A stretch of DNA of 64,000 nt from Lysinibacter sp. HNR (GTDB taxonomy: Bacteria; Actinomycetota; Actinomycetes; Actinomycetales; Microbacteriaceae), in the NCBI RefSeq assembly GCF_029760935.1, contig NZ_CP121684.1, positions 310,001-374,000 of the forward strand. Direction: 5' to 3'. Positions 10,954 through 37,934 of this stretch are shown in pieces (position 1 is the first letter of the stretch; every line of letters starts with the position of its first letter). A program made the position numbers and the translations under genes. The notes beneath the pieces are model-generated. The model was given only the letters and a program-made list of their open reading frames with translations. It did no database searches and was not told where the DNA came from.

Positions 10954-12129
10954 ATGAAAATAATGAGTCGTTTTGTGTTGGCGGGAGTATTTATTGTCAC
11001 TACCACAGCGGGGATGCTGGTTTGTGCGTCGTCGGCGAGTGCTGTCGACGTTGTGATTCCCGACGCAAGTTTTAAAGCGTGTATCAATGAGAGGCTTGGA
11101 CAAGCTCCGGATGCTGCCATCACGGTGAACCAGGCAGAATCGTTAGATGCCCTAGAGTGCCACGCAAAGGGGATTGTAAGTATTGAGGGGATTCAGTCCT
11201 TTACGAACCTTACATACCTCATGCTGGGAAATAACCAGATCAATAACGTTGCTCCTTTGGCAGCACTGAGCCGCCTCGATGCCTTGTCCCTAGCCGGTAA
11301 TCAGATTAGTGACATCGCTCCGTTAGCAGGGTTGAATAATCTTTTTGGCTTGTTCCTAGGCAACAATCAGATTAGCGATGTTAGTTCGCTCGTGCCGCTG
11401 GAAAACCTCGAGCAACTGTCTCTGGCGCATAACCAGATTAGTGACATCGCTCCGTTAGCGGAACTGACAAATCTGGGATTTTTGTTCCTGGACAATAACC
11501 AGATTAGCGATCTCGCTCCGTTGGCGCATCTGGTAAACCTCCGGAGCCTGTTTCTCAACGATAATCTGGTGAGTGACGTTACCCCGTTGGCAAATCTAGG
11601 GGCCCTCGAGTTTCTGTGGCTGTACAGCAATCAGATTAGTGATGTGTCTTCGCTTTACCCGGCGGCCATCCGGGGTACAGAGATACGAGGACGAGAGCAA
11701 ACAATTACTCTTCCCCCTATTTCCGCGGGTGTTGTTCAGGAAACTCCCCTCATCGGGTACAGCGGTAGGTTTGATCGGGTTCCAGTAAGCCCGCAGAGCG
11801 GTTCGGCAGAGATTCTCCCCGGCGGATTATCGTGGACTTACACAACTAGCGGTTCGAATACTCTGACCTGGGAGTGGGTGAACACTATTAACCCACCGCA
11901 GACGATAGCCTTTTCCGGTCAGATAGTGCAGGAATCAACACCGTCCATACCTCCGAGCCCGAACGTTTTGCCGGAGCCGAATATTATTCCAGGACAACCC
12001 GGTGCCAACGGCAGTGGCCAGCTTGCCAACACCGGTATTGCTGATCCGTTACCGTCGGGTATTTTGAGCGGTGCGTTGGCTCTTGCGGGCGTGGTGCTGT
12101 GGGCGTCCCGACTGAGGGCACGTCGATAA
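10954..12129 (+). CDS. Internalin-like LRR surface protein with LAxTG sortase anchor
   Basis: 391 residues. Signal peptide (about 1-30, ending SSASA), LRR cap (DASFKACINERLGQAPDAAITVNQAESLDALEC), seven leucine-rich repeats of 22 residues (about 80-235; SDIAPLAxLxNLxxLxLxxNQI), an Ig-like/bacterial adhesion domain (about 240-330; VPVSPQSGSAEILPGGLSWTYTTSGSNTLTWEW), a Pro-rich linker, then LANTG, a hydrophobic segment and RLRARR. LAxTG is the preferred signal of actinobacterial class E sortases. Such LRRs in Gram-positives bind proteins of host or neighbouring cells, but the target here is unknown. It is the intact paralogue of the broken LRR gene just upstream. Confidence 0.88.
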   Translation: MKIMSRFVLAGVFIVTTTAGMLVCASSASAVDVVIPDASFKACINERLGQAPDAAITVNQAESLDALECHAKGIVSIEGIQSFTNLTYLMLGNNQINNVAPLAALSRLDALSLAGNQISDIAPLAGLNNLFGLFLGNNQISDVSSLVPLENLEQLSLAHNQISDIAPLAELTNLGFLFLDNNQISDLAPLAHLVNLRSLFLNDNLVSDVTPLANLGALEFLWLYSNQISDVSSLYPAAIRGTEIRGREQTITLPPISAGVVQETPLIGYSGRFDRVPVSPQSGSAEILPGGLSWTYTTSGSNTLTWEWVNTINPPQTIAFSGQIVQESTPSIPPSPNVLPEPNIIPGQPGANGSGQLANTGIADPLPSGILSGALALAGVVLWASRLRARR

Positions 12130-12262: not shown

Positions 12263-13918
12263 ATGGCCAGAATTTCTGGTTCAGGTTATGAACTGAAGGT
12301 TATCGACAGGGCAGCCACGACTGTGTTTTCTGGGCGCTTTCGTTGGTTGGGACGGGTGTTGGGTGTTTTTGTGGCGGCCACGGTGGCGCTGGTGATGCTG
12401 GGGGTAGCCCCGGCCAGTGCGGCCATCCCAAATATCCCAAACATATGGTTCGCCGATGTTTCTGGGTACAAGGGTAATTACCCCACTCAGGTGGCTTTTA
12501 GTCCCGATGGAAAAATTGCCTACAGCACCAACGGGCTAACGAACTCCGTATCGGTAATTGACGCGGTAACACACAAGCAGATAAAGCATGTCCAGGGCTT
12601 TACGGGGGACGCTCCATACGGCGTAGCGTTCACTCCCGATGGAAAAACCGCATACGTCGCCAACCAATTTAGTAATTCGGTTACCGTGATCGATACGACC
12701 TATCACGCTCAGGTGCAGGAGGTCAAAGGCTTTGTGGGAGAGCGACCCACAAACCTGGAAATAAGCCCGGATGGGCGGTTTGCCTACGTTGGCAATATGA
12801 GCAGCAACTCGGTTTCTGTGATTGATGTGGCCGAGCACGCTCAGGTGGGCGAGGTGAAGAACTTGGCGGTGAGGTCACCGCTGGGGATCGCCTTTAGCCC
12901 CGATGGGAGTACCGCCTACATCGGCAACCGGGATCACAACAATGGTGGTGTCGCTGTGGTGGATGTGGGTACTCATACTCAGACCGCTACTGTTTCTAAC
13001 TACACCGGGAGAACGCCGTCAGGAATGGCATTTACACCGGACGGCAAATTTGCGTACATCACCTCCTACGGCGTCAGAGGCCAGGTGGCTGTGGTGGACG
13101 CTACTACTCACGAGCAGGTGGGGACTATTGCGGGACTCTACACGGTGTTCACGAGTGAGGTGGCATTCAGCCCCGACGGGGACACTGCCTATATTGCTAG
13201 TTTTATAGACAAATCCGTTCTGGTGGTGGATGTTCCCACCCACACGCAGAAAAGCATGATTACCGGTCTTTCCTACTCCCCGACCGACGTGGCGGTCAAC
13301 CCTGACGGAAGTGCTGCCTACGTCACTTCTTTTGCGGTGTCGGTTATTAGCGGCCCCCACACCGCACCGCGGGTGACACATCAACCGACTGATGTAACCG
13401 CGGAGGTGGGAGAAGAAGTAGAGTTTGTGGCAACGGCTCGTGCCCTACCCGCGCCGACGGTGCGGTGGCAGATTGCAGAGGCAGGAAGCGAAATTTTCAC
13501 TGACGTCCCCGGGGAAGCTTCGGATACGATGCGCGTTACGGTGAGCGAGGATGATAATGGAAGCCACTATCGAGCCCGTTTCAGTAACGATCTTGGTGTG
13601 GTGACTACCGCACCGGCCGTCCTGAACGTCGCTTCTACACCGGAGATTCCACCCGGAGGTAATCCGGAGCAACCGGGCGCTGTGGAGCCAAACCCAATTC
13701 CCGAGGGGGCAACCCCGGAGACTATACCGGAGAACGGTCCGATGGCACTGGGATTCCCGAGTGAGGCCTCGCCTGAGGATACAAAGAACGGGCTAGCGAT
13801 GACCGGGTTTGAGGGGGCAACGTTGTTCTCTTTTGTGGCGATCATCCTTCTAACGACCGGTGCTCTGGTTGTGATGCTTGCACGGCGACAGCCCAGCGCT
13901 GCAAAACGAAGGGTCTAA
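12263..13918 (+). CDS. Secreted YVTN beta-propeller protein with Ig domain and LAxTG anchor
   Basis: 551 residues from a normal ATG. Signal segment at about 30-55 (VLGVFVAATVALVMLGVAPASA), about seven propeller blades with recurring VAFSPDGKxAYVxNxxSNSVSVID (about 60-370), an Ig-like domain (about 375-460; PTDVTAEVGEEVEFVATARALPAPTVRWQ), a Pro/Glu linker, then LAMTG, a hydrophobic anchor and RRQPSAAKRRV. Likely displayed on the wall by a class E-type sortase. Unlike the four paralogues at 30450-36759, its start codon is ATG. Its stop overlaps the convergent permease gene by a few bases. Confidence 0.88.
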   Translation: MARISGSGYELKVIDRAATTVFSGRFRWLGRVLGVFVAATVALVMLGVAPASAAIPNIPNIWFADVSGYKGNYPTQVAFSPDGKIAYSTNGLTNSVSVIDAVTHKQIKHVQGFTGDAPYGVAFTPDGKTAYVANQFSNSVTVIDTTYHAQVQEVKGFVGERPTNLEISPDGRFAYVGNMSSNSVSVIDVAEHAQVGEVKNLAVRSPLGIAFSPDGSTAYIGNRDHNNGGVAVVDVGTHTQTATVSNYTGRTPSGMAFTPDGKFAYITSYGVRGQVAVVDATTHEQVGTIAGLYTVFTSEVAFSPDGDTAYIASFIDKSVLVVDVPTHTQKSMITGLSYSPTDVAVNPDGSAAYVTSFAVSVISGPHTAPRVTHQPTDVTAEVGEEVEFVATARALPAPTVRWQIAEAGSEIFTDVPGEASDTMRVTVSEDDNGSHYRARFSNDLGVVTTAPAVLNVASTPEIPPGGNPEQPGAVEPNPIPEGATPETIPENGPMALGFPSEASPEDTKNGLAMTGFEGATLFSFVAIILLTTGALVVMLARRQPSAAKRRV

Positions 13919-18320: not shown

Positions 18321-19953
18321 ATGATCACAAAGCGAACGCTTCCACGCGTTTTCTAGCTACTCTGAGCGGTGTTGCAGCCCTGGCTCTTATCGCCGCAGGC
18401 TGCTCTAACGACTCTTCGCGGGGGGGGGGGGGGGGGTAATAGCCTCATTGTCGGTACTACCGATAAAGTTGTCAGCCTTGATCCCGCGGGTGCGTACGAC
18501 AATGCTTCTTTTGTCGTGATGAATCAGGTGTATCCTTTTCTTCTGAACACACCGCTGGGGAGTCCGGATGTTCAACCGGATATCGCTGTCTCCGCTGAGT
18601 TCACCTCACCAACCGAGTACACCGTTGTTCTTAAAGAGGGCCTCACCTTTGCAAACGGCAATGACCTCACCTCCGAGGACGTTAAATTTACGTTTGATCG
18701 GCAGCTAGCGATTAACGACCCTGAGGGGCCGGCATCCCTTCTCTATAACACTGGAGAGTGTTTCCGCTCCCGACGACACCACAGTTGTTTTTACGCTTAA
18801 AGAGGCCAACGATCAGATCTTCCCTCAGGTTCTCTCCAGCCCCGCGGGACCGATAATTGACAAAGACGTCTTCCCCGCAGACAAAATTCTGAGTGATGAC
18901 GAAATCGTTCAGGAAAAGCCCTTTGCGGGTCAATACATCATCACCAGCTACCAGAAGAACACCCTGATCGGATACGAGAGCAACCCCAACTATCAGGGAC
19001 TGCTGGGAGCCCCCAAAACTGATGTGGTCAATACTCGCTACTACACCAGTGCCCCCAACCTGAAGCTTGATATTCAGGAGGGAAACATTGACGTGGCTTT
19101 TCGTAGCCTCTCTCCCACGGACATCGAAGATTTGCGAAATAACGATAGTGTGAACGTGGTGGACGGCCCGGGTGGTGAGATCCGCTACATCGTGTTCAAC
19201 TTCAATACTCAACCGTACGGTGCGTCAACACCCGAGGCCGACTCGGCAAAGGCGCTTGCGGTGCGTCAGGCCGTTGCCGACCTGATCGACCGTGACGAAA
19301 TTGCCCAGGATGTCTACAAGGAAACCTACACCCCTCTCTACTCTTACGTGGCAAGCGGGTTGACCGGGGCGAACGAGTCTCTGAAAGAGCTGTACGGTGA
19401 CAAGCAGGGTGGTCCCGATGCGGCAGTGGCCAAGGCGCGTCTTGAGGCGGCAGGGGTGCAGATTCCGGTAGAGCTGAGTCTGCAGTACAGCAACGACCAC
19501 TATGGCCCATCGTCCGGCGACGAGTATGCCCTTATCAAAGATCAGCTAGAGGCCGACGGCCTCTTTTCGGTTGACCTGCAAACAACGGAGTGGGTGCAGT
19601 ACTCTAAAGATCGCACCTCAGATGTCTACCCCGCCTATCAGCTCGGCTGGTTTCCCGACTACTCCGACTCTGATAGCTACCTCACCCCCTTCTTCCTCAC
19701 GGATAATTTCCTGATGAACCACTACGACAATCCCGAGGTAAACAACCTTATTGTTCAGCAAGCCACTACGGCCGATCGCGACGCACGCGTTGCCCTCATT
19801 GAGCAGATCCAGAAGAGCGTTGCGGCTGATCTCTCGACCGTTCCGTATCTCCAGGGTGATCAGGTTGCTATCACGGGAACCGATGTTCTTGGTGCGGCGG
19901 ACACCCTCGACGCGTCGTTTAAGTTCCGCTACGGAGCCCTCTCCAAGAACTAA
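18321..19953 (+). pseudogene. Peptide/oligopeptide ABC substrate-binding lipoprotein, with frame lesions
   Basis: Joined over three frame changes it is a normal family-5 solute-binding lipoprotein: MITKRTLPRVF, then LATLSGVAALALIAAGCSNDSS (lipobox AAGC), then SLIVGTTDKVVSLDPAGAYDN and PDIAVSAEFTSPTEYTVVLKEGLTFANG, then SVSAPDDTTVVFTLKEAN and onward to 19953. The lesions are one base missing near the T4 run at 18349 (TAG stop at 18354), a G17 tract at 18420 that is one G too long for the lipoprotein frame, and one extra base (or two missing) near 18745-18752. The rest of the operon is largely intact. Either a decaying gene, phase variation at the G tract, or sequence errors. Confidence 0.75.
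18420..18436 (+). repeat. Homopolymer of 17 G within the lipoprotein gene
   Basis: 17 consecutive G just after the lipobox Cys codon and its SNDSS linker. With 16 (or 13, 19) G the signal peptide joins the downstream frame; with 17 it hits TAATAG at once. Such tracts are slip-prone in vivo and also error-prone in sequencing. Confidence 0.85.
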
Positions 19954-29877: not shown

Positions 29878-29945
29878 AGAGTAAATCTAGTAGATTTTTT
29901 CCCTCGAGTTGATCAGCACACACAATTGGTATGGAAGAGGTTGCC

Positions 29946-30422
29946 GTGTCTCAGCCTGGAATAGCGGTGAGCCGTAGGTATCGAGGGTGGATGCTCGAGG
30001 CGTTGGAGGAGGCCAAACGCGCACTTGTCACGGGTGATGTTCCCGTTGGTGCCCTGATTTTTGATGTAAACGGTGTGCTGATTGGCTCCGGGCGCAATAT
30101 GCGCCAGGGCACATACGACCCAACCGCTCACGCAGAAGTTGTGGCGATCAAGCAGGCCGCACAGCATGTGCAAGATCGTGTCCTTGAGGGCTGCACTCTT
30201 GTGGTCACCCTGGAGCCGTGTGTCATGTGTGCGGGGGCAATCGCTACTGCGCGTATTCCTACGGTGGTTTTTGGTGCCTGGGATGAGAAGGCTGGTGCTG
30301 CGGGTAGCGTTTATGACGTGCTCCGTGATCGTCGTTTACCGCATCGCTCTGAGGTTATTGCGGGTGTAGAAGAAGACGCTAGTGCTGCTCTGCTCCGAGA
30401 GTTCTTTGCGGGGCAGCGCTAG
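29946..30422 (+). CDS. tadA: tRNA adenosine(34) deaminase
   Basis: GTG 29946 is chosen because GAAGAGG lies 5 nt upstream (158 residues); ATG 29931 is the alternative. Zinc deaminase motifs HAE (His62, Glu64) and PCVMC (Cys92, Cys95) are complete. The enzyme makes inosine at the wobble position of tRNA-Arg(ACG), which is itself encoded at 15669. ARIPTVVFGAWDEKAGAAGSVYDVL matches the TadA family. Its stop lies 27 bases before the stop of the convergent propeller gene. Confidence 0.94.
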   Translation: MSQPGIAVSRRYRGWMLEALEEAKRALVTGDVPVGALIFDVNGVLIGSGRNMRQGTYDPTAHAEVVAIKQAAQHVQDRVLEGCTLVVTLEPCVMCAGAIATARIPTVVFGAWDEKAGAAGSVYDVLRDRRLPHRSEVIAGVEEDASAALLREFFAGQR

Positions 30423-30449: not shown

Positions 30450-32003
30450 TTATTCAATCGGGCGAACTCGTGTGAGAGCTGCTGCCGTTCCCAGGGCAAT
30501 AAACATGCCTGCCAGATACCAGGAGGCCGTGTTCTTCTCTGTTCCGGTGTTTGCAAGGTGCCCGGGCCCGCCTGCCGTGGTGAGCGCTTGGGGAGCGCTT
30601 GGCGGTGGGTCTACGGGTGTGGAGGGAACGGGGGCGGCTGCGACCGTGATGCTGTATTCTCGGGTTGCTTCCGGTTCTATCCCATTGGTAGCAACGACCG
30701 TGAAGGTGTATGTTCCGGGTTGTACGGTGGGGATGATGGTTCCGGTGAGGGCTCCGGTTGCTCCGTCGAGGCTGAGTCCGCTGGGAACGCTTGAGGCTCC
30801 GGGGGTTGTTGCCGCGGTGTTTGTTCCGAGGGCAAAGCTGATTGTGGGTGTGGGGTACCCGGTTGTAACAAACGTATAGCTGGTGTACGCGGCCCCGGCG
30901 GCCCCGGTTGCCAGTGCTGCGGGGGCGAGTGTGGGTGCGAGCGGCAGGGCAAGAACCGAAACTGAATTGCCGGGGTAATTCGCAACGTACGCTTTATCTC
31001 CGCCGGGTGCGATTGCAATTCCTAGGCCACCCTGCCCACTATAACCCGTTACGGTACCAATTTGTGTGTGGTCGGAGACGCGGATGATGGCTACGCCTCC
31101 CTCGCTGTAGTTGGTGACGTAAGCTGTGGTTTGGTCTGGTGAAAATGCTACAAACTCGGGGTAGACTCCGACGCTGTCAATTGTGGTGACTTGGCTGTGA
31201 CTTGAAGCGTTGATAACCGAAACAGAGCCACTGGTGGTGTTGGCAACATACGCAATGCTGCCATCCGATGAAAAGGTCACGCCCTCGGGGTAATTCTGGT
31301 CGTAACAAGCGACCTCTCCCGTCTGCGTGTGCGTGGTCACGTCAATAATGGCGATGTAGTCATTGGTGAGGCCTATGCTGGTAACGTAAGCCTTACTTCC
31401 GTCTGGTGTAAAAGCCACGTCATTGGGAGCGCTTTCAACATCAAAATTGTGAACCGTTGCAATTTGTGTATGATCGGACACCCTAATGACAGAGATGGTG
31501 CCACCACTGTAATTAGTAACATAGGCATACTGTCCATCGGGAGTAAAAGCTACGCCCCAGGGATTTGTTCCGGTGTAGCCAGTAACTAGCTGGGTTTGCT
31601 TGTTTTGAGTGAGGTCGATAACGGATACTGTGCCACTGCTCCAGTTGGTGACGTAGACATACCGTTCGTCGGGGGAAATTGCTATCTGTTCTGGGCTATT
31701 CCCTGCGTAATCGGTGATATCCCCGGTTATTGTGTTGTCGGCAACGTTGATGATAGAGACAGAGTTGCTGCTCTCGTTGGTGACATAAGCAGTGGCCCCA
31801 TCGGAGGTGAAGGCTACACCCACGGGGCCGAGGCGGCCCGTATATCCCTGTACAGTGCCTATTTCTTGAGCAAGAGGGGGAAGAGCTAAAGCACTTTGTG
31901 CTCCTAGCGGGACAAGTGCCACGGAAAGGAAGGTTGCGAGGATGCTGACTTTTCTCACGCAGAACTTTTTTGCGCCATTTATTGAATTATACGAAATGTT
32001 AAT
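30450..32003 (-). CDS. Secreted YVTN beta-propeller surface protein D (ATT start)
   Basis: 517 residues from ATT 32003, with GAGGT exactly 6 nt upstream. The nearest conventional start is GTG 31958, which has no SD and would remove 15 residues. An in-frame TAG lies 4 codons before ATT, so translation cannot come from further upstream. Signal peptide to about residue 41 (GAQSALA), ~7 propeller blades of VAFTSDGATAYVTNESSNSVSIINV type (about 45-350), an Ig-like putative domain (PTLAPAALATGAAGAAYTSYTFVTTGYPTPTISFALG), a Pro-rich linker, LANTG anchor, hydrophobic segment and basic tail. Aligned with A-C, the first 38 residues match without gaps. Likely an adhesin or scaffold on the wall. Confidence 0.85.
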   Translation of the reverse strand: MNISYNSINGAKKFCVRKVSILATFLSVALVPLGAQSALALPPLAQEIGTVQGYTGRLGPVGVAFTSDGATAYVTNESSNSVSIINVADNTITGDITDYAGNSPEQIAISPDERYVYVTNWSSGTVSVIDLTQNKQTQLVTGYTGTNPWGVAFTPDGQYAYVTNYSGGTISVIRVSDHTQIATVHNFDVESAPNDVAFTPDGSKAYVTSIGLTNDYIAIIDVTTHTQTGEVACYDQNYPEGVTFSSDGSIAYVANTTSGSVSVINASSHSQVTTIDSVGVYPEFVAFSPDQTTAYVTNYSEGGVAIIRVSDHTQIGTVTGYSGQGGLGIAIAPGGDKAYVANYPGNSVSVLALPLAPTLAPAALATGAAGAAYTSYTFVTTGYPTPTISFALGTNTAATTPGASSVPSGLSLDGATGALTGTIIPTVQPGTYTFTVVATNGIEPEATREYSITVAAAPVPSTPVDPPPSAPQALTTAGGPGHLANTGTEKNTASWYLAGMFIALGTAAALTRVRPIE

Positions 32004-32014
32004 TTCAGTACCTC
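32001..32014 (-). promoter_or_regulatory. SD plus ATT initiation site of propeller gene D
   Basis: Minus strand: GAGGT (32014-32010), spacer ACTGAA, then ATT (32003-32001). Preceded by TAG CGA in the same arrangement as at gene B, as if copied with the stop codon of a former neighbour. Confidence 0.75.
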
Positions 32015-32129
32015 GCTATAGTAAACAATGCAGTCATTTTGTGTTAGCTTACAAATCTTATTGATTGGCGAAAAGAGCTTTTTTGTTCATTTTGTTCCAG
32101 TGGTGTGGAAAAATGAGGGCCAGTATGAT

Positions 32130-33656
32130 CTAACGAACTGAGCGAATCCGCTTTAAGAGGGCTGTGGCGCCGAGAGTAATGAGTATCGCCGCTAGATAAC
32201 CGGTCATGTTATTTTCCCCGCCGCTGTTTGCAAGTACTCCTGGCATTCCTGTTGCGGGCGGTTGGGATTTTTGTGTTGGATTCGCGGGACTGGGCGGCGC
32301 GGCCAGAACGGTGAGGCTGTACTCTCGGGCTGCGTTTGGCTCTACCCCGTTGGCGGCAATAACCGTGAAGGTGTAGGTTCCGGGTTGAACAGCGTTGAGG
32401 ATCGTGCCGGTGAGAAATCCGTTTGTGTCCAGGGTGAGGCCGCCGGGCACGCTCGCATTCCCTGGAACTGTTGCCACGGTATTAGTGCCGAGAGAGAAGC
32501 CTATCGCGGCGGTCGGGAATCCGGTTGTTGTAAATGTAAAACCGGAGTAGGCTGCTCCGACTGTGCCGCTTGTTGGTTGTGTTGGATTGAGCGTAGGCGC
32601 GGTTGGCAGGCTAAGAACCGCGATTGAATTACTCTCAAAGTTAGCAACATAGGCAGTGCTTCTCTGTGGGTTGATCGCAATTCCTACCGGACCCAGCTGG
32701 TTGTAGTTTGTGACCAGGCCAATTTGGGTGTTACTGCTGACCTCGACGATAGATACAGAAGCGCTGTTGTCGTTGGTGATGTAGGCGGTGGTTCCGTCAG
32801 TGGAGAAAGCTACGGCCCAGGGCGTCAGCTCAGCGTAACCGATGACCCTACCGCTTTCGGTGCCTGTGGCGACGTTGATAATGGAGACAGAGGAATTCCC
32901 GGAATTGGTGACATAGGCGACCTGTCCGCTGGGCGAAAATTTCACGTCCCAGGGCCCCGTGCCCGTGTAGCCGACAATGTCTTCCGTTCGTGTGCCCGAG
33001 GCAACATCAATGACTGAGACGGCGTTGCTGCCTATACTGACGACGTATGCGATGGTTCCGTCGGGCGAAAAAGCCACGTTCCGGGGTGCTTCATAGGTGT
33101 AGTTTGCAACGGAACCAATCTGTTTGTGACCAACCGTATCGATAATGGAGATTGTGCCGTTGCCCGAGTTGGTAACATACGCGATATTTTCGGTCGGAGA
33201 GAACGCAACACCAGAAGGGGCCACCCCAAGGTAGTCTGTGACCGTTGCGATTTGCGTGTGGGTGGCCACATTGATCACGGAGATAGAGTTGCTGGCTATG
33301 TTGGTAACGTAGGCAACGGTTCCGCTTGGTGAAAACGTTAGGTTCCAGGGTTCGACTCCGGTGTAGTCTTTGACTCTTCCTGTCTCTGTGTTGGAGGCGA
33401 GATCAATGATCGAGACCGATCCGCTACCCGAGTTGGTCACGTAGGCGGTGTTTCCATCGGGTGCTATGGTCACCCCCAGGGGTCCGAGTCCGATGTGGTC
33501 TGCTATGATTCCTGTTTGCCCGGCGAGAGGGGTTGTGGCCGAGGCGCTTTGTTCCCCTAGAGGCAGGACGAGTAGGGATAATGTTGTTATGAGAGCATAG
33601 ATAAACCTTGGGAAGCGTTTCTGCGCTCCAAATAATCTGTGATTTAAGGTACTAAT
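32130..33656 (-). CDS. Secreted YVTN beta-propeller surface protein C (ATT start)
   Basis: 508 residues from ATT 33656 (GAGGT, 6-nt spacer). An in-frame TTG at 33680 exists but has no SD. The first 38 residues align gap-free with the other three paralogues (LPLGEQSA at 31-38). Propeller blades (VTIAPDGNTAYVTNSGSGSVSIIDL...), one Ig-like domain (PTQPTSGTVGAAYSGFTFTTTGFPTAAIGFSLGTNTVATVPG) and a LANSG variant sorting motif with hydrophobic anchor and KRIRSVR tail. Ser in place of Thr in the motif is unusual for sortase substrates. Third gene of a four-gene minus-strand array. Confidence 0.85.
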   Translation of the reverse strand: MSTLNHRLFGAQKRFPRFIYALITTLSLLVLPLGEQSASATTPLAGQTGIIADHIGLGPLGVTIAPDGNTAYVTNSGSGSVSIIDLASNTETGRVKDYTGVEPWNLTFSPSGTVAYVTNIASNSISVINVATHTQIATVTDYLGVAPSGVAFSPTENIAYVTNSGNGTISIIDTVGHKQIGSVANYTYEAPRNVAFSPDGTIAYVVSIGSNAVSVIDVASGTRTEDIVGYTGTGPWDVKFSPSGQVAYVTNSGNSSVSIINVATGTESGRVIGYAELTPWAVAFSTDGTTAYITNDNSASVSIVEVSSNTQIGLVTNYNQLGPVGIAINPQRSTAYVANFESNSIAVLSLPTAPTLNPTQPTSGTVGAAYSGFTFTTTGFPTAAIGFSLGTNTVATVPGNASVPGGLTLDTNGFLTGTILNAVQPGTYTFTVIAANGVEPNAAREYSLTVLAAPPSPANPTQKSQPPATGMPGVLANSGGENNMTGYLAAILITLGATALLKRIRSVR

Positions 33657-33667
33657 TTTGCGACCTC
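33654..33667 (-). promoter_or_regulatory. SD plus ATT initiation site of propeller gene C
   Basis: Minus strand: GAGGT (33667-33663), spacer CGCAAA, then ATT (33656-33654). Confidence 0.75.
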
Positions 33668-33714
33668 TCTCACTAATCAATAGTGCATTTTCTGGTTTAG
33701 TTAGTCATTGACAA

Positions 33715-35220
33715 CTATTTGGCCGCCGTGCGCCGTGCCACGATTGCTATGGCTCCGAGGACAACCAATATGCCGGCCAGATAATGGATGCTGTGATTTT
33801 GGACACCGCTGTTTGCCAGTTCTCCTGGCATACCAACTGTGGGGGTTGGTGCTGGCGGGTTTGGGGCGGCAAGAACGGTGAGGCTATAGCTTTGGAGCGC
33901 GTTCGGCTCGGCGCCGTTACTGGCAACAATCACAAAGTTGTACGTTCCGGGTTGCACCGTGGAGAGTATGGTGCCGGAGAGAACCCCCTCCGTGTCGAGG
34001 CTTAATCCGCTGGGTACGCTTGCGTTTCCGGGGACTGTTGCCGCGGTGTTTGTGCCCGCGGCAAAGCTTGTTATCGGGGCGGGGAAACCCGTTGTTGTAA
34101 AGGTAAATCCAGTATAGGTTGCTCCGGCAGTACCGTTTACAGGTTGCGCTGTATTGAGTGTGGGTGGGACCGGTAGGCTCAGAACCGAGATTGAATCGTT
34201 TCCGGGGTTGGCGACGTAGGCCGTGGGGTTTAGTGGGTGGACGGCTATCCCCACGGGTGCCACCCCGGTGTAGCCCGTGACCTCGCCTATAGGTTCGTGA
34301 TTACTGACGTTAACGGCAGTAACCGAGTCGCTCCCGGTGTTGGCAATATATGCGGTAACCCCGTCGCGCGAAAATGCCACTCCCCAGGGTTCTTGGAACG
34401 GTGTGTAGTTATCGATCGTTTTTATTTGGTTTCTTGTCGCAACATCAATGATAGAAACAGAGTTGGTTCCAAAATTAGTGACGTATGCGGTGGCTCCATT
34501 AGGCGAGATTGCGATTCCCCGAGGGTCTGTTTGGTTATAGTTAGCAACCGTATAAACCTGTTTATCTTCGGTGGTGTCGATGATGGAGATGGTGTCGTAA
34601 TTGATAACGTACGCGAGGCTGCTTCCAGGTACCAGCGCGATATCTTTGGGAGAAGTGCCGTCATAGTCAGTGACTAGCCTCTCCTGCTTTTTTGTGGTGG
34701 TGTTGATGACAGAGATGGAGCTGTTGATTGAATTAGTGACGTACGCGGTCGTTCCATCGGGTGAAAAAACCACACCCGCGGGGCCGACTTGATCGTAATC
34801 CTCGATTGTCCCGGTTTGTTTATGCTCGGTGACGTCGATAATGGAGACGCTGTTACCAAGGAGGTTGGTAACGTACGCGGTCGTTCCGTCGGGGGAGAAG
34901 GCTACGCCCCACGGGCCACCGCCCACGAAATCCACAACGTTCCCTATCTTGTGATTAGTGGCGACGTCGATAATGGAGACGGAGTTGCTGTCCAAGTTAG
35001 TGACGTAAGCGGTTGTTCCGTCGGGCGTTATGGCTATATTCTCAGGCCCGTTCCCAATGGACTCGGTGATAGTTCCTGTTTGGGCGGCGAGGGCTGTATC
35101 GGCCGAGGCGCTCTGTGCTCCCAAGGGTATTAAAAGTAGGGATAGCACCGCCACTAAGATAGGCATTTTTATTGCGTTTCTTCTGTGTGTGCGGAATAGC
35201 ACGCCGTGTGAAATGTTAAT
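33715..35220 (-). CDS. Secreted YVTN beta-propeller surface protein B (ATT start)
   Basis: 501 residues from ATT 35220, 12 bases after the TAG of gene A, with GAGGT wedged between the TAG and the start. The TAG of A is in the same frame as B. GTG 35202 and ATG 35184 are later conventional candidates without SD. Signal peptide (VAVLSLLLIPLGAQSASA), blades with SPDGTTAYVTNLLGNSVSIIDV, Ig-like domain (AQPVNGTAGATYTGFTFTTTGFPAPITSFAAGTNTAATVPG), LANSG motif, membrane segment and RRTAAK tail. Strongly similar to A and C, indicating recent tandem duplication. Confidence 0.85.
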   Translation of the reverse strand: MNISHGVLFRTHRRNAIKMPILVAVLSLLLIPLGAQSASADTALAAQTGTITESIGNGPENIAITPDGTTAYVTNLDSNSVSIIDVATNHKIGNVVDFVGGGPWGVAFSPDGTTAYVTNLLGNSVSIIDVTEHKQTGTIEDYDQVGPAGVVFSPDGTTAYVTNSINSSISVINTTTKKQERLVTDYDGTSPKDIALVPGSSLAYVINYDTISIIDTTEDKQVYTVANYNQTDPRGIAISPNGATAYVTNFGTNSVSIIDVATRNQIKTIDNYTPFQEPWGVAFSRDGVTAYIANTGSDSVTAVNVSNHEPIGEVTGYTGVAPVGIAVHPLNPTAYVANPGNDSISVLSLPVPPTLNTAQPVNGTAGATYTGFTFTTTGFPAPITSFAAGTNTAATVPGNASVPSGLSLDTEGVLSGTILSTVQPGTYNFVIVASNGAEPNALQSYSLTVLAAPNPPAPTPTVGMPGELANSGVQNHSIHYLAGILVVLGAIAIVARRTAAK

Positions 35221-35231
35221 TTTGCAACCTC
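35218..35231 (-). promoter_or_regulatory. SD plus ATT initiation site of propeller gene B
   Basis: Minus strand: GAGGT (35231-35227), spacer TGCAAA, then ATT (35220-35218). It begins directly after the TAG of gene A. Confidence 0.75.
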
Positions 35232-35232
35232 G

Positions 35233-36759
35233 CTAATTAGTCAGTGACGCACATTTAATAGTGTTTGATTTGTTCCACTCTCGTGCCAGTGTAGCTATGA
35301 CACCGAGGGCGATGAGCAGTCCTGCCAGAGGTGTAGGGGTGTAATCTGTGCTGCCGGTGTTTGCAAGCTCCCCCGCCGTGTTTATTACGGGTGCTGCGGG
35401 CTTTGGTGGAGCAACGACAGTGAGACTATACTCCTGGGTCGCATCTGGGACGACGCCGTTACTGGCGACAACGCTAAAACTGTAGGTTCCGGGCTGTGCC
35501 GTGCTTGAGATAGTGCCCGACAGGACTCCCGCGGTATTCACGTTCAATCCACTGGGAACACTTGCGTTTCCGGGTGATGTTGCCTCGGTATTTGTGTTGG
35601 GAGCAAAGGCTGTTGCCGGCGTGGGGAACCCGGTTGTTGCAAATGTAAATCCGACATAGGGCGACCCGACAGTGCCTTCTGTCGGTTGAGCTGGGTTGAG
35701 TATGGGTGGGGTCGGAAGACGCAGAACGGATACTGAGTTGCTATAGGCATTGGTAACGTAGGCAGTGTCCCCCAGCGGCACAATGGTAACGGGACTTAGC
35801 CCCGTGTAGTGTGCGACCACACCCGTCTGGGTGCCACTGTTCACCTCGATAACAGACACGGAGTTACTCCCACTATTGGCGACGTAGACTGTGGTGCCGT
35901 CAGGCGAAAAGGTGAGGTCCCAGGGCGTGTTTCCCGTGTAGTTGGTGACCGTCCCGGTTTGGATACCGGCGGTGGCGTTGATGATGGAGACGGAATCGCT
36001 GCCGTAGTTGGTGACGTACGCGAGAGTTCCGTCGGGTGAAAAAGCGATGTGCCAGGGAGCGTTTCCCGTGTAGCTGGCGATTGTCCCGGCTTGTTTGTTT
36101 TGAGTGGTGTCGAGGACAAACACAGAGTTGCCCTGGGGGTCGGCAACGTATGCAACACTTCCGCCGGGTGCGAGCTCCAGGCTCCAGGCTGTTCGGCCGG
36201 TGTAGTCGGCTACTAGCCCGGTTTGTGTGTGGTTAGCGGTATCGATGATAGAGATAGAAGCGCTCTCAAAGTTGGTGACATACGCGGTGGTTCCATCGGG
36301 TGAAAATGTCACATCTGAGGGCGCATTCTCCGTGTAGTTATCGATGATTTCGGTTTGTACATTGTTTATGGCATCGATAACTGAAATGGTGTCACCAACA
36401 ATGTTGGTGACATAGGCGACCGTTCCATCGGGTGAAAAAGCGATGCTCCACGGTGCGCCCCCGCTGTAGTTTGCGATAAAACCGGTTTGTGTGTTGCTGG
36501 CAACGTCGACGATGGAGACAGACTCACTGTCGGTGTTGGCAATATATGCGGTGGTTCCATTGGGCGAGATTGCCGCTCCCGAGGGAGACTGGCCGCTATA
36601 GCTGGCTATAAGAGCTATTTGCTCGGCAATGGGAGTGACGGCTGAGGCGGGCTGTGCCCCGAACGAGATAAAAAGCAGAGACAGTACAGCTGTGAAACTA
36701 AGAGGTGTTCTTGCATCGTATTTTTTTACATGACATGAGCCACGGTATGAAGTATCTAT
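35233..36759 (-). CDS. Secreted YVTN beta-propeller surface protein A (ATA start)
   Basis: 508 residues from ATA 36759 with GAGGT exactly 6 nt upstream. There is no ATG, GTG or TTG in this frame until GTG 36312, which would delete the signal peptide and two blades, so the ATA is the only start that gives a paralogue-like protein. The first 38 residues align gap-free with B-D (SFTAVLSLLFISFGAQPASA signal). Blades carry IAFSPDGTVAYVTNIVGDTISVIDA and similar. The Ig-like domain (AQPTEGTVGSPYVGFTFATTGFPTPATAFAPNTNTEATSPG) precedes LANTG, a hydrophobic anchor and a tail NKSNTIKCASLTN longer than in the others. First gene of the array. Confidence 0.8.
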   Translation of the reverse strand: MDTSYRGSCHVKKYDARTPLSFTAVLSLLFISFGAQPASAVTPIAEQIALIASYSGQSPSGAAISPNGTTAYIANTDSESVSIVDVASNTQTGFIANYSGGAPWSIAFSPDGTVAYVTNIVGDTISVIDAINNVQTEIIDNYTENAPSDVTFSPDGTTAYVTNFESASISIIDTANHTQTGLVADYTGRTAWSLELAPGGSVAYVADPQGNSVFVLDTTQNKQAGTIASYTGNAPWHIAFSPDGTLAYVTNYGSDSVSIINATAGIQTGTVTNYTGNTPWDLTFSPDGTTVYVANSGSNSVSVIEVNSGTQTGVVAHYTGLSPVTIVPLGDTAYVTNAYSNSVSVLRLPTPPILNPAQPTEGTVGSPYVGFTFATTGFPTPATAFAPNTNTEATSPGNASVPSGLNVNTAGVLSGTISSTAQPGTYSFSVVASNGVVPDATQEYSLTVVAPPKPAAPVINTAGELANTGSTDYTPTPLAGLLIALGVIATLAREWNKSNTIKCASLTN

Positions 36760-36770
36760 TTTGTTACCTC
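36757..36770 (-). promoter_or_regulatory. SD plus ATA initiation site of propeller gene A
   Basis: Minus strand: GAGGT (36770-36766), spacer AACAAA, then ATA (36759-36757). Decides the start of gene A. Confidence 0.7.
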
Positions 36771-36938
36771 TTATGTTAGTAAATATGATTCACGTTTGGT
36801 TTAGTATACAAAATCAATAGCGATTGTGGCGATATTTATTGACCGACACCTCACTGTCGATACCCCAAAGGTGTGCGGGATGCTGCTTTTACCGCATCCG
36901 CCTATTGGGGCTGCTCTATCTATACCTGGGCGTGCGCG

Positions 36939-37934
36939 CTAGTCGGAGCTTCTCAGCACAATAGCCTCCGTGGAGGGTGCCGGGTCGTGAGGATCGATGT
37001 ATACGTCGGGCTCGAGATAGATCACGCGCGCTGCGGGAACCGCGTTGCGGATGCGCTCCTCGGCTTTATTAATTAGTACCGAGAGCTCAGCAATGGTTTT
37101 GCGGGGAGAAACAGCGATCTTTGCCCCGATCAGAAATTCGTCAGGGCCAAGATAGAGGCTCTTCATATGGATGATTCGCTCAATCTCGTCGTCCCTGAGC
37201 AGAGCCTTCTCAATAAGAACGATATCTTCGTCAGAGGCGCCCTCGCCAACAAGCAGGCTCTTGATCTCTACGCCAAGAATGATCGCAACGGCAATGAGAA
37301 GAATACCAATAAGGATTGTTGCAATACCGTCAAAAAGGCCATTACCCGTGATGGTGGTGAGCCCCACACCCAACAGTGCAATGACAAGACCGGCAAGGGC
37401 GGCAACATCCTCGAGCAAAACCACGGGAAGTTCGGGGGCCTTGGAACGCCGCACAAACTGAACCCAGGATTTATTGCCGCGCAGGGGATTGCTTTCGCGG
37501 ACGGCGGTGCGCAGCGAGAAGCTCTCTAGCACTATAGCCACCAGCAGCACACCAACGGGCAGCCACCACGCCTCAAGCGGGTGAGGGTCTTGAATTTTAT
37601 TCACACCCTCGTATACAGAGAAAACGCCGCCGACAGTAAAGAGAATGATGGCAACTACAAACGCGTAGACAAAGCGCACGCGTCCATAACCAAAGGGATG
37701 CTCCCGATCTGCCTTTTGCCTGGCGCGTTTATGCCCCAGGAGTAGCAGAAGCTGATTGCCGGAGTCGGCGAGAGAGTGCACTCCCTCCGCCAGCAGCGCG
37801 GAGGAACCCGAGATAAACCACGCAAAAAACTTTGCAATCGCAATTCCGAGATTTGCTCCGAATGCTGCGATTATGGCTTTTCTTCCGCCTGAAGCGCTCA
37901 CAGGTTCTCCGATTTCTGCGGTGGGGGTGTTCAT
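36939..37934 (-). CDS. Cation diffusion facilitator (CDF) metal exporter
   Basis: 331 residues. Six membrane segments in the first ~215 residues, with the metal-site motif EGVHSLADSGNQ in segment 2 and LLEDVAALAGL in segment 5, then a cytosolic ferredoxin-like domain (EIERIIHMKSLYLGPDEFLIGAKIAVSP...YLEPDVYIDP). It exports divalent metals (Zn, Mn or Fe) by proton antiport; the metal is not predictable by eye. Divergent from proC. Confidence 0.9.
   Translation of the reverse strand: MNTPTAEIGEPVSASGGRKAIIAAFGANLGIAIAKFFAWFISGSSALLAEGVHSLADSGNQLLLLLGHKRARQKADREHPFGYGRVRFVYAFVVAIILFTVGGVFSVYEGVNKIQDPHPLEAWWLPVGVLLVAIVLESFSLRTAVRESNPLRGNKSWVQFVRRSKAPELPVVLLEDVAALAGLVIALLGVGLTTITGNGLFDGIATILIGILLIAVAIILGVEIKSLLVGEGASDEDIVLIEKALLRDDEIERIIHMKSLYLGPDEFLIGAKIAVSPRKTIAELSVLINKAEERIRNAVPAARVIYLEPDVYIDPHDPAPSTEAIVLRSSD

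Follow-up and report, generated by a model that had tools for sequence, protein, structure and literature searches.

To our knowledge, the AUU, AUA and AUC start codons that have been characterised experimentally all belong to isolated single genes, mostly encoding regulators or translation factors. E. coli infC, which encodes IF3, has a start of this AUU/AUC/AUA type and is autoregulated by IF3. In Streptomyces, IF3 represses non-canonical starts, as shown experimentally for sigR with its GTC start, and infC is itself reported to start at ATC (PMC5472188). In S. aureus, the starts of cvfC1 (AUU) and of ccpN and citZ (AUA) were experimentally mapped; AUU and AUA starts backed by strong SDs work there at roughly 10% of AUG, and the non-canonical starts of cvfC1 and ccpN are conserved (PMC13009471). 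E. coli pcnB is cited in PMC13009471 as a gene whose AUU start limits translation.

Here we describe four tandem genes (A to D) of Lysinibacter sp. HNR, found in a stretch of 64,000 nucleotides ("the window"), that appear to belong to this known class of non-canonical AUH starts, each of them displaying an in-frame ATH codon behind an SD at productive spacing; what would be new is that the class includes a tandem surface-protein family. Like infC, the array combines a good SD, an AUH start and an in-frame stop upstream, but infC encodes IF3 and closes a feedback loop, whereas the array is made of four probably wall-anchored surface-protein paralogs. Streptomyces sigR is, as the array genes would be, an actinobacterial gene whose expression is held down by IF3 acting at a non-canonical start, a start that gene finders misannotate; sigR is nevertheless a single regulatory gene starting at GTC, and its IF3 effect is experimental, whereas that on the array is predicted. 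The S. aureus genes cvfC1, ccpN and citZ share AUU/AUA starts and a strong SD with the array but are single unrelated genes instead of a tandem surface-protein family, and pcnB differs in being a single cytoplasmic enzyme gene.

Probable start sites in a tandem surface-protein array

The array lies between a tadA-like gene (29931-30422, + strand) and a cation-efflux-like gene (36939-37934), and its features are the following (positions in the window):

36803..36832, minus strand: promoter-like site TCGCCA-18-TATACT, 5' of gene A (consensus match only, near chance density)
36766..36770, minus strand: SD GAGGT of gene A, 6 nt 5' of ATA; this SD is invariant in 4/4 paralogs
35233..36759, minus strand: gene A, secreted YVTN beta-propeller with He_PIG and LANTG anchor; candidate start ATA at 36759, with GAGGTAACAAA directly 5' of it; 508 aa
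35227..35231, minus strand: SD GAGGT of gene B, 6 nt 5' of ATT
33715..35220, minus strand: gene B, paralog with LANSG anchor; candidate start ATT at 35220, with GAGGTTGCAAA directly 5' of it; 501 aa
33663..33667, minus strand: SD GAGGT of gene C, 6 nt 5' of ATT
32130..33656, minus strand: gene C, paralog with LANSG anchor; candidate start ATT at 33656, with GAGGTCGCAAA directly 5' of it; 508 aa
32010..32014, minus strand: SD GAGGT of gene D, 6 nt 5' of ATT
30450..32003, minus strand: gene D, paralog with LANTG anchor; candidate start ATT at 32003, with GAGGTACTGAA directly 5' of it; 517 aa

Each of the four proteins comprises a signal peptide, whose n-region carries about four basic residues, then a YVTN propeller and a He_PIG domain, and at the C-terminus LAN[T/S]G, a hydrophobic stretch and a basic tail. 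The YVTN repeat model TIGR02276 gave 124 to 146.9 bits in A-D (cut-off 27.85), and the closest solved structure to the propeller part was PDB 1L0Q, a YVTN beta-propeller surface-layer protein (E 5.6e-46), a likeness that concerns the protein only and not the start codons. Since a gene for a class E sortase is present in the genome (at 16.6 kb; NF033747, 196.9 bits for a cut-off of 160) and since sortases of this class use LAXTG (PMC5148588), A-D, which have the features of class E sortase substrates with a Ser for the Thr in B and C (LANSG), are probably anchored to the wall by sortase E. The promoter-like site at 36832-36803 possibly drives the array, and no convincing terminator was found between the array genes. 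Two other LAXTG-type surface genes are found on the + strand of the window, both starting at ATG: one (10954-12129) encodes a leucine-rich-repeat protein that weakly resembles internalin models and the other (12263-13918) a YVTN propeller with an Ig-like domain.

A preliminary description of this DNA had claimed that GAGGT, exactly 6 nt and then ATT (B, C, D) or ATA (A) precede each protein in frame, and we recovered these exact sites on the minus strand in all four genes. It had also described gap-free N-termini, with which our alignment agrees, the four proteins aligning without gaps from the ATH codon to the signal-peptide motif. As it had stated, an in-frame TAG is found upstream of the ATT of B and D; this codon is located five codons 5' of the ATT, however, with four sense codons in between, and not four codons before it. 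The SD of gene B opens 1 nt past the stop codon of gene A (35233-35235). In gene A, the closest in-frame stop upstream is 11 codons away, and the reading frame bears out the earlier statement that not a single ATG, GTG or TTG follows in frame until GTG 36312, deep in the propeller; ATA 36759 is the sole SD-backed start candidate in this gene. Considering that gene A lacks a canonical start that would keep its signal peptide, a non-canonical start is needed if this gene is functional. Only gene A is forced into such a start, since the three other genes own in-frame canonical codons that keep the signal peptide: GTG 35202 and ATG 35166 in gene B and GTG 31958 in gene D, all inside the n-region, and TTG 33680 in gene C, upstream of its ATT.

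Since such codons exist, one could propose that B, C and D begin at GTG 35202 or ATG 35166, TTG 33680 and GTG 31958, respectively, that A is silent or decaying and that the SD and the ATH codon are a relic of an ancestral ATG start; when read from its GTG, gene D would have a textbook short signal peptide (MRKVSILATFLSVALVPLGAQSALA). However, an SD was sought at these canonical alternatives of B, C and D and none of them has one; they also sit in differing alignment columns. In addition, the 508 codons of gene A are uninterrupted and encode a conserved propeller and anchor, and one would not expect a leftover SD to remain flawless in all four genes when their proteins share about 50% identity. 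We therefore regard canonical starts as clearly unlikely and strongly infer, from these sequence features, that initiation takes place at the ATT/ATA codons of A-D. If so, gene calling restricted to canonical codons has a blind spot here: it strips gene A of its signal peptide and 149 residues and gives B, C and D starts that lack an SD.

Another explanation would be that a sequencing or assembly error turned ATG into ATT or ATA, and frameshifts elsewhere in the window (transporter gene, 18.4-19.9 kb) could hint at indel errors. Such an origin is hardly credible for the array, where four copies with differing flanks carry two different substitutions at the same codon, which are not homopolymer indels.

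Conservation and history of the probable weak start codon

A-D display protein identities of 45-53%, and within their start region conservation peaks in the 13-nt SD-to-AT block, which also speaks against canonical starts at scattered positions: 9 of its 13 columns are invariant in A-D, compared with 10 of the 103 columns on its flanks (Fisher p = 6e-6 when ungapped; p = 1.4e-4 on a MAFFT alignment). The SD + ATH pattern observed in A-D is real and non-random. Codons 2-19 of A-D showed no third-position excess of change, giving no signal either way, a point that can be counted in favour of the canonical starts discussed above. The absence of a codon-position signal is usual in signal-peptide n-regions. 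The argument that the n-region is coding consequently rests on the frame, the exact length and the SD, and not on amino-acid constraint.

A fifth paralog, found at 2.39 Mb of the same genome, starts with an ATG preceded by the SD GAGGGGT, and this ATG shares its alignment column with the ATH codon of A-D. Two TAA codons in the search match had raised the possibility that this gene (L005:1483-2541, about 2.392 Mb) is a pseudogene; this was rejected, since it encodes a complete unanchored propeller of 352 aa and then ends at a terminator-like hairpin. Taken with the SD and its spacing, the conservation of the block and the lack of an alternative in gene A, this same-column ATG upholds the start-site reading given in the preliminary description, which is probably right.

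In a tree of the paralogs, A (ATA) groups with B (ATT) with a support of 94/96, so that the history is explained most simply by an ATT ancestor and a single later change from ATT to ATA. The shared ATT/ATA can then be traced to one ancestral array, indicating that it was inherited and not invented four times independently. Most likely, the weak start was already present in the common ancestor of the array and was kept through deep divergence; the point of note is that all four deep paralogs retain ATT/ATA, none having reverted to ATG, while the fifth paralog has ATG. Relatives from the family and beyond (Lumbricidophila, Arthrobacter and others; 30-41% identity) mostly have ATG or GTG near the signal peptide, and no close array orthologs were found in plasmids and viral contigs.

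This history also fits a simpler proposal, in which initiation does take place at these codons but their weakness serves no regulation, an ancestral mutation having been fixed, inherited by duplication and compensated by a good SD. A-D are indeed tandem paralogs whose state was probably inherited once, as the grouping of A with B shows, and their SD and A-rich context are good. Yet ATG is only one base change away and, despite the deep divergence of the array (45-53% identity), 4/4 genes remain ATT/ATA; furthermore, in the sampled part of the genome this start type is common only to the array and infC (see below). We consider the absence of any role somewhat unlikely, although it is the most serious of the competing explanations.

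Genome background, infC and the initiation machinery

A sample of the genome amounting to 864 kb, with about 600 predicted genes and including 40 stretches of 20 kb, was scanned for GAGGT, GGAGG or AGGAG located exactly 6 nt 5' of an in-frame ATT, ATA or ATC near a coding start. Only six genes were retrieved: A-D, infC (ATC) and one likely false match sitting 21 codons inside a gene. The 6-nt spacing itself is common among the SD-preceded canonical starts of this genome. When searched in the whole 2.92 Mb genome, GAGGTNNNRAAATW occurred 12 times; four of these occurrences are the array starts and the other eight are not starts, corresponding to six identical copies of one repeated element and two isolated sites, one of which lies within an apparent coding frame. 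That the SD and ATH codon are part of a repeated mobile element was rejected, since the six GAGGTCACGAAATA copies are those of a different repeat, whose ATA begins a frame of just 8 codons. This GAGGTCACGAAATA repeat is probably an insertion-sequence element, with six identical copies at contig positions 1050309, 1180501, 1337156, 2086590, 2344147 and 2663158. It was also rejected that SD + ATH is a trait of all sortase substrates of this genome, as no SD-preceded ATH start was seen at the signal peptides, as far as these could be placed, of about 17 further LxxTG-type ORFs from the sampled regions.

The infC gene of this genome (contig 705,120; L147:10120; + strand) has an ATC start located 6 nt after AGGAG and reads TTAGGAG CAACGC ATC AGC GAT CCC CGT ACA AAT GAA CGT. 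An in-frame TAG is found just before the SD, 3-4 codons before the ATC, and no canonical codon appears until residue 18, so that this gene would be miscalled by gene finders restricted to ATG/GTG/TTG. Starting at ATC behind an SD and 6 nt, infC provides a natural positive control for the array architecture inside the same genome.

A pattern search that left the anticodon free detected a single initiator-type tRNA, with anticodon CAT; the three 16S 3' ends carry the normal anti-SD GGATCACCTCCTTTCT, and infC/IF3 is intact. With an ordinary initiator tRNA, an ordinary anti-SD and an intact IF3, initiation with fMet is expected, the third base of the codon being left mismatched, and IF3 is known to disfavour start pairs of this kind (PMC10158994). 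Alternatively, this organism could possess an unusual initiator tRNA or a modified ribosome dedicated to recognising AUU/AUA as starts. No support for this alternative was found, and the single CAT tRNA, the three normal anti-SDs and the intact infC argue against it, as does the usual ATG > GTG > TTG order, which holds in the 273 sampled genes whose canonical start is backed by an SD; we thus judge it exceedingly improbable.

A possible IF3-dependent control of the array

The reading that we favour, with a probability of about 0.72, is that A-D are translated through ordinary fMet initiation at AUU (B, C, D) or AUA (A), rescued by the SD and repressed by IF3, leading to a low and coordinated expression, and that this weak start is ancestral and was kept. 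According to this model, the four genes would be on one transcript, on which the GAGGU SD 6 nt upstream and an A-rich spacer would position the 30S subunit, while the initiator tRNA (anticodon CAU) would pair with just the first two positions of AUU or AUA. IF3 would then discriminate against these codons, making initiation slow at each array gene, and the translation rates of the four genes would respond in concert to the IF3-to-ribosome ratio, as does that of infC. Ribosomes that terminate on A may also re-initiate on B, the SD of B starting one base after the stop of A.

Since IF3 discriminates against such codons, a low translation rate would be expected for each array gene, and we infer by analogy that A-D are both weakly translated and sensitive to IF3. 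The preliminary description had suggested that these starts could give the surface array a built-in low-rate or IF3-tuned expression; we find this plausible, and can add one new fact to the idea, infC of the same genome starting at ATC with the same architecture. That the SD-ATH arrangement is otherwise found, in the examined part of the genome, only in the self-regulating infC suggests that the array is deliberately set at a low and IF3-sensitive rate. The selective reason may, hypothetically, be to keep the dose of the surface array low or tied to growth. A stronger version of this model would be that selection keeps the whole surface-protein operon on AUU/AUA, forming a small IF3 regulon with infC in which the IF3-to-ribosome ratio, and thereby the growth state, sets the density of wall propellers by translation; this version is speculative and we hold it to be rather doubtful. 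A tandem family of wall-anchored paralogs that all keep such starts would show that selection can use weak start codons to adjust how much of an entire surface array is made, and would carry control by IF3 beyond IF3 itself and sigma factors.

The RNA structure predicted at the four starts was mostly unremarkable (z -2.0 to +0.6), with no fold in common. A mini-ORF of 3-10 codons, opened by ATG or GTG, is found just 5' of or overlapping each array SD (window 36796-36770, 35257-35231, 33693-33667 and 32040-32014); these mini-ORFs have no SD of their own, their length is not conserved and they possibly arose by chance. Elsewhere in the window, an apparent gene for an ABC-transporter substrate-binding protein (18350-19953, + strand) carries two frameshifts, one of them near a G-rich tract, and corresponds to a pseudogene or to a sequence error.
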